Source of the DNA: Deltaproteobacteria bacterium
Lineage (GTDB): Bacteria; Myxococcota; Myxococcia; Myxococcales; 40CM-4-68-19
Direction of reading: 5' to 3'
NCBI GenBank assembly: GCA_025358085.1
Contig: JANYKT010000126.1
Coordinates: 1 to 64,000, forward strand
DNA: 64,000 nt
The position numbers and the translations under genes were made by a program. Below are positions 6,115 through 10,650 of the stretch, in pieces; the first letter of the stretch is position 1, and each line of letters begins with the position of its first letter. The notes beneath the pieces are model-generated. The model searched no databases and had not been told where the DNA came from. It saw only the letters and a program-made list of their open reading frames with translations.

Positions 6115-7070
6115 TCAATTCCGGACTGTAGCGATAAGATCAGGTTGCGCAATGGACAGCTCGAGCGGCCGTCCGTCCATCAACAAATTTCGCAGGCCGG
6201 CGCGTCGCGCGAGCAACAGAGCCGACTGCACCTCGGCAGGCTGCGCCGCGCGCGCCAGGATGGGGAAGAGGCTCGCCTGGTAGACGGGTCGATACTGGGA
6301 CATGACGTTCATCCACAGCGCAGGCGAGATGGCGGCGAGCAGCGGCATCAGGCGGGCAGGCGCGGCGGCCTCGTACGGTAGCACCAGGTGGCGCACCAGC
6401 AAGCCGCGCACGGCCAGCTCTCCGTCGAGCTCGAGATCGCCGACCTGCCGGTGCATCTCGCGCAGGCCCTCGTCGAGCGCAAAGGTGTAGTCGCGGCAGC
6501 CCGACAGCGCGAACGCGGTCTCATCGTCGCCGTACTTCGCATCGGGCAGATACACATCCACCACGCCCTCGAGCAGGCGCAGCGCCTCCAGGCTTTCGTA
6601 GCCACCGCAGTTCCACACCACCGGCAGTGAAAAGCCGTGGACCGCGGCGCGCGCGAGGCCGACAGGAGCGCGGGCAGCACATGCGTGGGCGTCGCGAAAT
6701 TGACGTTGGCCGCGCCCTGCCTCTGGAAATCGAGCAAGAGCCCCGCGAGCCCCTCTTCAGAAGTTGGGATCAGCTGGCGCCTCTCGAGGGAAAAATCGAA
6801 GGTCTCGCAGTACCGGCAGGCAAGGTTGCAGCCGCCGATGAGGATCAAGCCCGACCCGCGGCGCGCGGAGCTGCTGCTGCCCACCAGAACTGTCTCCTCG
6901 CCAAAGTGCACGCCAGCGCCCACGAGATAGAGTCCGTCGCCTTCGGTGCAGCGGCCGGCTGGCCCGCGGGTGCGATCCACCAGGCAGTCGTGCGCGCAGA
7001 GATCGCAGCGCGCGTAGTGGGCGCGGGCCTCGTCGGCGCGCAGGCGCAGCTCGGCCGGCGAGAGGTTCAC
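6115..7070 (-). pseudogene. PflX-like radical SAM protein with a one-base frameshift
   Basis: The gene starts at a GTG (7070) overlapping the SDR stop by 4 nt and reads through an N-terminal Cys pair (CDLCAHDC) and the radical SAM motif CNLACRYCETF. It is then in the wrong frame from about 6655 onward. The remainder, in the other frame, carries the expected NCGGYESLEALRLL and PDAKYGDDETA segments down to the stop at 6115. The total of 956 nt is one short of a multiple of three, so a single lost base in the GC run near 6650-6660 explains it. The family resembles pyruvate-formate-lyase activase relatives (PflX, COG1313) of unknown substrate. It may be a real inactivation or an assembly error. 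Confidence 0.8.
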
Positions 7071-7840
7071 TCGACGGCCTTGACCTGTCCGCGCGGCACC
7101 ACCAGGAGGGCGCCTCCAGACACGGAGAGCGTCTGCCCCAGCACGTGCCCCGACGCATCGGAAGCCAGGTACAGCACCGCATTGACGATGTCGTCCACTT
7201 CGGCGACGCGCTTGTTCGGCAGCGTCGGAATCATGACCGGACCGATGCGCTGCAGGGCCTGTTCGGCCATCTGGGTGCGGACCCAACCCGGCGAGACCAG
7301 GTTGACCCTGACTTGTGGCGCGAGCTCGACCGCGAGCGACATCATCATCGACTGAAGCGCCCCTTTCGAGGCCGCGTAGTGCGAGTGGCGCGCCTCGCCG
7401 CGCTCGCCGGCGGTGCTCCCGATGAGCACCACGCAGCCCTTCGGCCGCAGCGCGGGAACCAGCTCGCGCACGAGGTAGAAGGCGCTGAAAGTATTCACCC
7501 GGAACATCTCCTCGAGCGTCTCGGCAGACAGCGTCTCGATGGGTCCCGCGTTCCAGATGCCGGCCGAGTGGACGAAGAGGTCGACCTTGCCCAGCGAGTC
7601 GCGCGCGTACTTGGCCAGGTCCATGCAGCCCTGCTCGGTGCTGAGACTGGCCCGGAAGGGAAATCCTGCGCCCGCAAACCGCGCCGCAAGCGACCTCGCT
7701 TCCGGCGCGTGCGTCTTGTACTGGAGCACGACGCGCATGCCCTGCTGCAGCAGCGCCTCGGCGATGCCGCAACCGATTCCGGACGAAGCGCCCGTCACGA
7801 GAGCAGCGCGGCCCTTCAGGTCAGGATAGAGAGCTTGCAT
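7067..7840 (-). CDS. Short-chain dehydrogenase/reductase
   Basis: 257 aa NAD(P)-dependent oxidoreductase. The cofactor motif TGASSGIG lies at residues 16-23, with Asn116, Ser142, Tyr155 and Lys159 making the classical SDR tetrad (HSHYAASKGAL around Tyr155). Substrate cannot be read from sequence. The ATG at 7840 starts the conserved domain; an in-frame extension of 73 residues would run through the divergent sigma-factor gene and is unlikely. It heads the leftward operon. The start region is shared with the promoter region of the rightward ECF sigma gene. Confidence 0.85.
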   Translation of the reverse strand: MQALYPDLKGRAALVTGASSGIGCGIAEALLQQGMRVVLQYKTHAPEARSLAARFAGAGFPFRASLSTEQGCMDLAKYARDSLGKVDLFVHSAGIWNAGPIETLSAETLEEMFRVNTFSAFYLVRELVPALRPKGCVVLIGSTAGERGEARHSHYAASKGALQSMMMSLAVELAPQVRVNLVSPGWVRTQMAEQALQRIGPVMIPTLPNKRVAEVDDIVNAVLYLASDASGHVLGQTLSVSGGALLVVPRGQVKAVE

Positions 7841-7913
7841 GGTGCGGTGGAGCCTAAGGCTTTTCTTTCTTTGCAACGTGAAATACTGCCGCAAACTTCG
7901 CGTAGCAGCTTGC

Positions 7914-8558
7914 GTGGACACAGCCCTCAATCTCCCCCTGCCCTTGTCCGAACCCCGAAGCAGCCCTGTACCTGCCAGCCCTGCCGATGAATTGGCATGG
8001 GCGCGCGCGGCAGCCAGCGGAGACCGCGCAGCCTTCAGCCGGCTGGTCGAAAAGCACAAAAATTCCGTCTTTGGGCTCTGCTACCGCCTGCTCGGGACCA
8101 CCGACGAATCGCGCGACGCCGCGCAAGAAGCCTTCGTGCGCGCGTTCACCGGCATCCGCGACTTCGACCCGCGCCAGCCCTTTGCCGCCTGGGTTCTGCG
8201 CATCGCGCGCAACCACTGCATCGACCTGCTTCGCCGCCGAAGGCCGACCTTGGCGCTGGCTGGTCAAGGCTCGCGCTCCGACGACGGCCCCGAGCCGGGC
8301 GTCGTCCAGGAGTTGCCCGACAACTTCGCGCAGAGCGGCGAGCAGGTCACGCAGGAGCGCGAGGCCCAGCGTGACCTCGACCGCGCCATCGCCGCGCTGC
8401 CCGAGCGCTACCGCGAGGTCATTGCTCTCTTCCATGTCCAGCACCGCAGCTACGCCGAGATCGCCGGGACGCTGGGCGTTCCCATGGGAACCGTGATGAC
8501 CTGGCTGCACCGCGCCCGCAAGGAACTCAAGGCGCAGCTCTCGGAGCACCTGTCATGA
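7914..8558 (+). CDS. ECF-type RNA polymerase sigma factor
   Basis: About 214 aa sigma-70 of the extracytoplasmic-function class. Region 2 shows FSRLVEKHKNSVFGLCYRLL, then DAAQEAFVRAF and FAAWVLRIARNHCIDLLRRR. A linker is followed by region 4 with LPERYREVIALFHVQ and the helix-turn-helix SYAEIAGTLGVPMGTVMTWL. The start is uncertain: GTG at 7914, TTG at 7944 or ATG at 7839 are all in frame. I favour 7914, since the longer form would overlap the SDR start. The stop overlaps the anti-sigma ATG (ATGA), the usual arrangement for a sigma/anti-sigma pair. Confidence 0.9.
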   Translation: MDTALNLPLPLSEPRSSPVPASPADELAWARAAASGDRAAFSRLVEKHKNSVFGLCYRLLGTTDESRDAAQEAFVRAFTGIRDFDPRQPFAAWVLRIARNHCIDLLRRRRPTLALAGQGSRSDDGPEPGVVQELPDNFAQSGEQVTQEREAQRDLDRAIAALPERYREVIALFHVQHRSYAEIAGTLGVPMGTVMTWLHRARKELKAQLSEHLS

Positions 8559-9064
8559 ACCACCTCGACGACAGCGCGCTGCAAAGCCTCGCCGACGGCA
8601 CGATGCGCGGCCCGCAGCGGTTTGCAGCCCACGAGCACTGCGACGCGTGCGCCGAATGCGCCGCCATTTTGGCCGGCTACGCCGCACTCACAACGAAGCT
8701 GTCGGCGCTGCACGATCCGGAGGTCCCTGCCGACTTCACCGCCACGGTGCTGGCCGCGGTGGACGCGCGGGAGCTGCAGCTCACCCAGCGGCGTCACACC
8801 TGGCTCGCCGCGTTCTCGGCTGTGTCTCTCGCGCTCTTCGCGGTGGTCGGCTGGATGCTGTCGGCCGCCCCCGCTGCTCACGTAGACGGGCTGGTCGAAG
8901 GCGTCACCGTGGTCCGGCATGTCTACGGCGCGCTGGTGCCGGTGTTCGGCGCCGCCCGGCTGCCGCTGGGCCTGGCCGCCTTCGCGCTCACCGCCGCCAT
9001 CCTGTTTGTGCTGCTGCGCACGCTGCGCGCCGGCCAGGGTGCCGACGCCCAGGCGCAATCATGA
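8555..9064 (+). CDS. Zinc-binding anti-sigma factor
   Basis: 169 aa membrane anti-sigma factor. The N-terminal cytoplasmic domain carries the ZAS motif HxxxCxxC in HEHCDACAEC (His30, Cys34, Cys37), which binds the cognate ECF sigma. Two membrane segments follow at about residues 89-110 (WLAAFSAVSLALFAVVGWML) and 139-160. It overlaps both neighbours by 4 nt, so sigma, anti-sigma and the downstream membrane protein should be made together. The periplasmic loop between the two helices is only about 28 residues, so signal input probably comes from a partner, likely the downstream protein. Confidence 0.88.
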   Translation: MNHLDDSALQSLADGTMRGPQRFAAHEHCDACAECAAILAGYAALTTKLSALHDPEVPADFTATVLAAVDARELQLTQRRHTWLAAFSAVSLALFAVVGWMLSAAPAAHVDGLVEGVTVVRHVYGALVPVFGAARLPLGLAAFALTAAILFVLLRTLRAGQGADAQAQS

Positions 9065-10650
9065 TCTTTGCCCTTCTGCTCGCGGTCGGCTCGGCTCATG
9101 GGGTGCTCTACGAGACCTTCCTGGAGCGGCTCCAGGCCCACGGCGCGCACGGGGCCCTGTCCAAAGCGTTTGCCGGTCTGGCCGACAGCATGGTCACCCT
9201 CGAGGTCAGCGGAGCCGACAAGGTCGACGCGGGTGACGAGCCGGACGAGCCGGACGAGCCGGATGAGCCGGACGACAGCGATCGCCTCGAGGTGATCGCG
9301 CCGCTCCCGCCCCTTCCTCCGATCCCTCCGATTGCGCCCATTCCTCCGATCCCGGCCGTCGCTCCGGTCCCTCCGCTGCGACCCGGTGCCTCCTCGGCCG
9401 AGCAGCGGGCGCATGAACAACTGGTCAGGGCCCACGACCGCGCGCAGGCCGCACGCGACCGGGCGCGAGCCGCGCTGGACGGGACCCAGGCGGACCGCGA
9501 CCGTGCCGCGGAGCACTCGTTGCGCCTGGAGTTCCACCGCGACGACGCCGCGCCGCTTCCCCGCTTCTCCGAGACGGCCAAGGGGGTTGGCACCGTCGAC
9601 CTGCTCCAACGCATCGCCCGTACCGCCGGCTGGTCGATGACGCTGGTCGGGTCCCCTCGCGAGACCGTGGATATCGACATCAAGGATCAGGACCCCCGCG
9701 AAGCGCTGCGACAGGTGCTCAAGCAAAGCTCTGCGATGGGCGTGCTCAAGCGCGACCGGCTGGTAGTGGTCGCCGCCCCTGACAAGAGCACCGCCGGCCT
9801 GCTGGTCGAGCAGACCTCGCGGCACGGCAAGAAACACGGCGCAAGCTCGAAGCGCGGCAGCGACAACAACGACCTGGTCCGTGTCTTCCAGGGCGACATC
9901 ACGGTGCCGAAGGGCACTGTGGTGCAAGGCGACGTGGTCTGTGTCGGCGGCTCCATCGAGCTTGAGCCGGGCAGCGTGGTGCAAGGTGACGCGGTCGCGG
10001 TGATGGTCAGCGTCACCGTGGACGAAGGCGCGCTGGTGCTGGGCCAGGGCGTGGCTGTGCTGGGAGAGTTGGACGTTCGGCGCGGCGCGCAGGTCATGGG
10101 CGAGCACGTTCAGGTCGGCTTCGGCCGCCTCTTTTCGCACTCGAAGCGGAGCCACTCATCTCTCTCGAGCCTGGGACCGTTCGGACTCTTTCCAACGCTG
10201 GCGCTGTTCGCGCTCACTTATCTGCTGGGGCTGCTGGGGCTGCGCATGTGGCCGGACCGCGTACGCATGGTGGGGCACACCATGTTCGAGTCGCCGGTGC
10301 GCAGCTTCTTCGTCGGCTTTCTCTGCTGGCTTTTGCTTTTGCCGCTGGTGGTTCTGCTCTGCATCTCCATCGTCGGCATCCTGCTGGTGCCGCTCCTGCC
10401 GGTCGTTCTCTTTCTTTCCATCGTCCTCGGCTTGAGCGCCTTCGCGCTGACCCTGGGCGAGTCGCTGCCGGCAGGTCCCGGACAGCGCTTCGTCCCTCCC
10501 GCCGCGCTGGGCATGGGCATGACGGTGCTGCTGGTGCTTGGGCTGGTGCCGTGGCTGGGCATTTCGCTGCTCGCGCTCCTTCAATTCTTCGCGCTCGGCT
10601 CGGCGATCGGCTCGCGGTTCGGACGGGCGCTGCCTCCGCACGTTCCTTAA
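9061..10650 (+). CDS. STN / bactofilin-like membrane protein in ECF operon
   Basis: 529 aa multi-domain membrane protein. Residues 1-14 look like a short signal sequence. Then come an acidic Glu-Pro-Asp repeat (59-72), a Pro/Ile-rich stretch (80-108) and a charged helical linker (112-155). Residues 176-240 look like an STN domain (VDLLQRIARTAG, DIDIKDQDPREALRQVL), as at the start of secretins and TonB-dependent transducers. Residues 275-352 form a beta-helix of bactofilin type (GDITVPKGTVVQGDVVCVGG). The C-terminus from 374 has about five membrane helices. Its ATG overlaps the anti-sigma stop by 4 nt. In FecA-type systems an STN domain signals to the anti-sigma factor, so I infer a sensing or output role. 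No experimental family assignment is known to me. Confidence 0.75.
   Translation: MIFALLLAVGSAHGVLYETFLERLQAHGAHGALSKAFAGLADSMVTLEVSGADKVDAGDEPDEPDEPDEPDDSDRLEVIAPLPPLPPIPPIAPIPPIPAVAPVPPLRPGASSAEQRAHEQLVRAHDRAQAARDRARAALDGTQADRDRAAEHSLRLEFHRDDAAPLPRFSETAKGVGTVDLLQRIARTAGWSMTLVGSPRETVDIDIKDQDPREALRQVLKQSSAMGVLKRDRLVVVAAPDKSTAGLLVEQTSRHGKKHGASSKRGSDNNDLVRVFQGDITVPKGTVVQGDVVCVGGSIELEPGSVVQGDAVAVMVSVTVDEGALVLGQGVAVLGELDVRRGAQVMGEHVQVGFGRLFSHSKRSHSSLSSLGPFGLFPTLALFALTYLLGLLGLRMWPDRVRMVGHTMFESPVRSFFVGFLCWLLLLPLVVLLCISIVGILLVPLLPVVLFLSIVLGLSAFALTLGESLPAGPGQRFVPPAALGMGMTVLLVLGLVPWLGISLLALLQFFALGSAIGSRFGRALPPHVP
9235..9270 (+). repeat. In-frame 9-bp tandem repeat (4 copies)
   Basis: Four copies of GACGAGCCG (the fourth has GAT) encode Asp-Glu-Pro repeats in the STN/bactofilin-like protein, followed by a half copy. 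Copy number could vary between strains without changing frame. Confidence 0.85.

Follow-up and report, generated by a model that had tools for sequence, protein, structure and literature searches.

Myxobacteria carry dozens of extracytoplasmic function (ECF) sigma factors, most of them without a known signal. Among described ECF systems, the RpoE-RseA-RseB genes of Escherichia coli form an autoregulated operon of a sigma factor, a membrane anti-sigma factor, and a third protein that faces the periplasm. SigW of Bacillus subtilis recognizes promoters of the TGAAAC-N16-CGTA type, to which the promoter reported here is similar. The yvlA-D genes are part of the core SigW regulon (PMC3498285), with YvlB being of the toastrack type and YvlC of the PspC type (PMC11237479). 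In FoxA/FoxR, the STN domain of the receptor pairs with an STN domain in the periplasmic part of the anti-sigma factor, and an anti-sigma STN domain is also found in PupR (PMC11637429). Here, we analyzed a three-gene operon, referred to below as the triad, at positions 7914 to 10650 of a 64,000-nucleotide stretch of DNA (the window) from a Deltaproteobacteria bacterium (contig JANYKT010000126.1 of assembly GCA_025358085.1). It encodes an ECF sigma factor, an anti-sigma factor, and a membrane protein that combines an STN-like domain with a beta-helix. The triad is a real and widely conserved ECF/anti-sigma variant, in which the third component is unusual and the predicted regulon is PSP-like (phage shock protein-like). 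No description of it was found in the literature searched, which excluded the main ECF classification, where the sigma factor may already have a group number.

All three genes lie on the forward strand and are joined by 4-nt ATGA overlaps at 8555 to 8558 and 9061 to 9064; the operon structure and both overlaps given in the initial annotation, which was made from the sequence without database searches, were exact. The first gene (7914 to 8558) starts with GTG and encodes a sigma factor of 214 amino acids, with Pfam matches to Sigma70_r2 (E value, 1e-18) and r4_2 (E value, 3e-18) and a match to TIGR02937 above the cutoff. Regions sigma2 and sigma4 without sigma3, in a protein of about 200 amino acids, place it among the ECF (group IV) factors, and it is single copy in most genomes of the order. 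Its highest NCBIfam similarity was to SigW (E value, 2.9e-43), but the score of 147.9 bits fell below the 209-bit cutoff for a SigW equivalog. The second gene (8555 to 9064) encodes a class I, zinc-motif anti-sigma factor of 169 amino acids, identified by motif, NCBIfam, alignment, and hydropathy. An N-terminal Hx3Cx2C domain encoded beside an ECF gene is characteristic of this class (ASDI/ZAS); the motif, H28-x3-C32-x2-C35, was located by sequence and alignment at 8636 to 8659. NCBIfam returned an anti-sigma/ChrR-type match (E value, 1e-5), and zf-HC2 was found in homologues. Alignment and hydropathy placed transmembrane (TM) helices at about residues 81 to 105 and 131 to 158, with a periplasmic loop of about 25 to 40 amino acids between them, in keeping with the small loop described initially; neither a large periplasmic domain nor an STN subdomain could be identified in this protein by the same means.

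Conservation of the triad was assessed across the order of the relatives, which we take to be Myxococcales, with the family names Myxococcaceae and Anaeromyxobacteraceae likewise assumed. Homologues of the third protein were identified in 130 of the 145 genomes of the order searched, a count that includes some weaker, partial matches; one candidate, L003 (L numbers denote individual loci), was rejected because it matched the acidic linker of the protein by chance. The sigma, anti-sigma, and third-protein genes were found in the same order and on one strand at 41 loci, one in each of 41 additional genomes of the order, these being the fetched loci with enough upstream sequence, and additionally at L246. 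Of the 49 genomes in a phylum-wide sample that lie outside the order, only four yielded a substantial match, in each case the same triad (L241 to L244), and a fifth match was marginal. The third gene lay strictly behind the anti-sigma gene in the 41 relatives and in the four phylum genomes, usually overlapping it or separated by a few nucleotides. A search for the same triplet in related genomes had been proposed initially, with a lack of conserved linkage as the outcome that would speak against the operon; that outcome did not occur in the 41 genomes of the order, at L246, or in the four genomes outside. The linkage, kept across the order and beyond, also agrees with the initially proposed partnership of the third protein with the anti-sigma factor. 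In gene order and predicted autoregulation the triad resembles RpoE-RseA-RseB; however, its third protein has multiple TM helices, with no RseB homology detected, and its anti-sigma factor has two TM helices.

The Hx3Cx2C motif was absent from the anti-sigma factor in 7/41 relatives. These belong to one Myxococcaceae branch (L054, L055, L056, L068, L070, and L073) and one other family (L053), and all have retained the triad and its promoter. Other mixed groups likewise vary in the zinc motif of the anti-sigma factor (PMC7406223).

A predicted autoregulatory ECF promoter, TGAAATA-N15-CGTA, was identified by motif search and its conservation in relatives at 7879 to 7904 on the forward strand, with the GTG start codon of the sigma gene (7914) 9 nt downstream. 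Within the window, TGAAAT-N14..18-CGTA matched only at this site, and the strict form TGAAATA..CGTAG occurred once in the 5.4-Mb genome. Upstream of the sigma gene, G[AC]AAT-N15..17-CGT[AT] was present in 40 of the 41 relatives, compared with a background rate of 0.02 matches per 260 nt. Each family has its own form: TGAAATA...CGTA is almost invariant in the family of the window, CGAAATA...CGTA is found in Anaeromyxobacteraceae, and GCAAT(G/C)...CGTA in Myxococcaceae. The conservation of both triad linkage and promoter across the order is confirmed as more than chance, and autoregulation of the sigma operon from its own ECF-type promoter is strongly supported by the sequence comparison. In 39 of the 41 relatives a start codon in the sigma frame follows the motif, which ends in the CGTA −10 element, by 8 to 10 nt, with 9 nt in nearly all. 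As this fixed spacing leaves no space for a Shine-Dalgarno leader, the sigma mRNA probably has little or no leader throughout the order. The same spacing was seen at some other predicted targets (L077, L119, L111, and L101). The sigma promoter is closely preceded by a divergently oriented short-chain dehydrogenase gene (7067 to 7840, minus strand).

The third gene (9061 to 10650) encodes a protein of 529 amino acids, which was characterized from its sequence, Pfam and profile searches, AlphaFold, Foldseek, and hydropathy. From the N terminus it comprises a hydrophobic segment, an acidic linker, a Pro-rich linker, a charged helix, the STN-like domain, the beta-helix, and four to five TM helices. 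The hydrophobic segment is a probable signal peptide, as the equivalent segment looks clear in many relatives. The two linkers noted initially were recovered at 9232 to 9384, where DEP repeats (residues 58 to 75) precede a Pro-rich stretch (residues 80 to 108), both modeled with low pLDDT. The multihelix membrane C terminus was likewise borne out, with four to five TM helices at residues 373 to 521 (10177 to 10623) by alignment, AlphaFold, and hydropathy, and with P398, G419, G457, G466, P470, G486, P497, G500, and G513 invariant. The full-length AlphaFold run used a three-row alignment and gave the TM part low confidence (pLDDT, 45 to 60), and no topology or fold was drawn for it.

Residues 169 to 238 (9565 to 9774) form the STN/N0-like domain, for which AlphaFold predicted a beta-alpha-beta-beta-alpha-beta-beta arrangement with a pLDDT of about 80; Foldseek matched the model to PilQ N0, DotD, and GspD N0. 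Searched as a single sequence, the protein gave nothing significant in the PDB and, in Pfam and NCBIfam, only a weak, subthreshold STN match (E value, 0.05). Pfam STN was found in 21/36 homologues (best E value, 1.6e-18), while an STN profile made from Myxococcaceae misses the window copy. A profile of the whole third-protein family identified PilQ N0 (E value, 8e-13) and also HofQ N0 as its sole significant PDB matches, and no TonB receptor appeared among its PDB matches at an E value of <1. The STN-like domain of the initial annotation thus holds, with fold and profile similarity to secretin N0 domains.

The beta-helix at residues 273 to 352 (9877 to 10116) was modeled with a pLDDT of 91 and a pTM of 0.81, with Foldseek matches to 2n3d and 6ria. 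Bactofilins were the most plausible of the PDB matches, but the top one, bactofilin BacA, was statistically weak (TM-score to 6ria, 0.57 to 0.58; E value, about 1). Pfam Bactofilin was detected in 7/36 homologues at an E value of <0.01 but not in the window copy. A beta-helix, as described initially, is predicted, and it may be a right-handed one of bactofilin size; membership of the bactofilin family is not supported, the resemblance being at the level of fold only. Compared with the bactofilins BacA and BacM, the beta-helix appears to be of similar size, but it is predicted to be secreted, membrane anchored, and fused to an STN domain. On the basis of the homologue matches and structural models, the labels "secretin-type STN" and "bactofilin-like beta-helix" are justified.

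The beta-helix and membrane domain were present in every triad third protein. The number of STN copies varied, with one in most, two in Anaeromyxobacteraceae, three in L051, and none in L052, L242, and L244. In L051 (2199 to 4526), the third protein has 776 amino acids, and its beta-helix is preceded by a PEGA domain and by three STN-like repeats.

These domain assignments bear on how the module could sense its signal. The initial annotation had raised a FecA-like mechanism, in which the STN domain takes a signal from the outer membrane and passes it to the anti-sigma factor. The triad does share an ECF sigma factor, a membrane anti-sigma factor, and an STN-containing partner with FecI-FecR-FecA and FoxA-FoxR, and in FecA/FoxA systems STN domains signal to anti-sigma factors and can shield them from proteolysis (PMC11637429). 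However, the STN domain of those systems sits on a TonB-dependent receptor, and the triad has none; the third protein instead joins its STN domain to a beta-helix and TM helices without a receptor domain. The anti-sigma factor also offers no periplasmic STN partner, the STN domain resembles secretin N0, and it is dispensable, being absent in L052, L242, and L244. The FecA-like mechanism is accordingly not supported and is considered very unlikely. The N0 resemblance could alternatively mean that the STN domain docks to a secretin or to the type IV pilus machinery, so that the module would monitor secretin assembly or pilus stress. The PilQ and HofQ matches of the family profile would fit such a contact, as would the ability of STN domains to bind one another and inner-membrane partners (PMC11637429), but secretin or pilus genes were not seen among the sampled targets of the sigma factor and the module persists where the STN domain is missing, making this explanation improbable as well.

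To predict the regulon, as the initial annotation had suggested doing from promoter motifs, genomes were searched with each family's own motif form and with a reversed-pattern control. Sites were enriched in all three families: 22 versus 1 in the window's family (12 genomes), 47 versus 0 in Anaeromyxobacteraceae (13 genomes), and 60 versus 3 in Myxococcaceae (10 genomes). Apart from those at sigma promoters, the sites mostly lay directly ahead of genes. In Anaeromyxobacteraceae these encode PspC, a small periplasmic beta-helix protein, a DUF2807 toastrack protein, Yip1, DUF5916, S9 and S41 peptidases, and small membrane proteins. Myxococcaceae targets comprise PspC, a TM2-like membrane protein, a small bactofilin-like protein, Transgly_assoc (GlsB-like), MacB/FtsX permeases, and beta-lactamase-family hydrolases. 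In the window's family, secreted peptidases (M3, M13, M16, and S8) and DUF885 proteins were identified; the DUF885 target was found in two genomes, at L119 with the strict pattern and at L077, in the window's own genome, with a wider pattern, which also gave a Yip1-like target (L080). The wider pattern, GAAAT-N15..17-CGTA, was kept out of the regulon definition, as its 37 matches in the window's own genome were near the 27 of the control, but its DUF885 and Yip1 matches recur in relatives.

PspC-like genes followed matching sites in 10/10 Myxococcaceae and 7/13 Anaeromyxobacteraceae genomes, and Pfam PspC was confirmed on L151 and L185, which, at the sequence level only, puts PspC, a component looked for in a PSP system, under this regulator. 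The −35 element is GAAATA in Anaeromyxobacteraceae (sites L127 to L170) and GCAATS in Myxococcaceae (sites L171 to L220), a difference common to the sigma and PspC promoters. Because the PspC −35 form shifts as that of the sigma promoter does, the PspC targets would be tied to this sigma factor rather than to another ECF factor; the agreement emerged from searches that used each family's own form and is not an independent test. As read from these promoters, the shift is a natural case of sigma-promoter coevolution.

Several smaller targets recurred. A separate secreted beta-helix (bactofilin-like) protein of about 170 to 190 amino acids was found at L133, L160, L163, L164, L181, and L249, and in one Myxococcaceae genome (G058) its gene and the triad are about 15 kb apart. 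Recurrent short targets, mostly without a Pfam family, were a 73-amino-acid membrane protein, a TM2-like protein of 73 amino acids, and a 52-amino-acid secreted peptide, together with a 99-amino-acid protein whose single TM helix and coiled-coil-like tail bear a loose resemblance to PspB (short-target loci: L143, L146, L150, and L162; L192 and relatives; L175, L218, and L220; L127, L141, and L145).

The triad shares with SigW-RsiW a sigma factor nearest to the SigW model, a zinc-motif anti-sigma factor, and PspC and toastrack genes in the predicted regulon. It differs in its sub-equivalog sigma score, the two-TM short-loop anti-sigma factor, the third STN/beta-helix membrane gene, and the near-leaderless autoregulatory promoter. 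Likewise, PspC and toastrack targets and the association of beta-helical proteins with a sigma factor are reminiscent of the PSP and Lia systems (Ravi et al. 2024, PMC11237479), but toastrack was inferred in that study to be intracellular, whereas the beta-helix of the operon is bactofilin-like, is predicted to be periplasmic behind a signal peptide, and is fused to an STN domain and TM helices. The text of that study does not mention the triad.

Because the predicted regulon and promoter resemble those of SigW, the operon may form an ECF module for envelope stress, with its third protein acting as a membrane cosensor or coinhibitor, a reading to which we assign a probability of roughly 0.55. 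We infer that at rest the anti-sigma factor, an inner-membrane two-helix hairpin, would sequester the ECF sigma factor, with the third protein beside it in the membrane and the STN domain and beta-helix in the periplasm. As sensor and coinhibitor, the third protein would stabilize or gate the anti-sigma factor, probably through its membrane domain and beta-helix, which are proposed as the acting parts since they are constant across triads. The stimulus would be envelope damage, which could alter the state of the third protein such that the anti-sigma factor lets go or is degraded, freeing the sigma factor, which would then use the GMAAT-N16-CGTA promoter to transcribe the operon that encodes it. 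Autoactivation of the operon would refill inhibitor and sensor, giving amplification followed by self shut-off. The sigma factor would also switch on PspC, toastrack, small periplasmic beta-helix, Yip1, and GlsB-like proteins, MacB-type permeases, and secreted peptidases for envelope protection and repair.

The third protein could instead be an effector, a periplasmic beta-helix scaffold that is made on demand under the sigma factor and stabilizes the inner membrane, with the TM hairpin of the anti-sigma factor sensing the signal. The sigma factor appears to drive further effector-like genes (PspC, toastrack, and small periplasmic beta-helix), and homologues of the third protein occur without a sigma gene at L050, L062, L065, and L245, with L062 and L065 being second copies in genomes that also carry the triad. 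The strict position of the third gene behind the anti-sigma gene, however, fits a dedicated regulator such as RseB. PSP-type proteins, for their part, work at the membrane (PMC11237479). An effector role is considered possible but doubtful. Several observations nonetheless weigh against the cosensor reading. The role of the third protein as read here rests on gene linkage, the STN domain is optional among triads, and the protein, having sigma-less homologues, may serve a structural function of its own. The target list of the window's family, mostly peptidases, is unlike that of the other two families, and the PspC evidence comes from Anaeromyxobacteraceae and Myxococcaceae genomes. Other ECF sigma factors of the same genomes could also share similar promoters.

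Taking the cosensor reading further, we tentatively propose that the third protein might found a new sensor class for ECF stress responses, in which a membrane-anchored periplasmic beta-helix with one to three optional secretin-type N0 domains would assemble or dock in the periplasm and pass information on envelope integrity laterally through the membrane to an anti-sigma factor with two helices, controlling a PSP-like regulon throughout the myxobacteria. Since almost all relatives sampled carry a predicted promoter and the regulon suggests envelope stress, experiments in Myxococcus or Anaeromyxobacter can test the module directly. Such a module would give ECF signaling a further sensor architecture, connect stress sensing with bactofilin-like beta-helices, and place a SigW/PSP-like response far from Bacillus.

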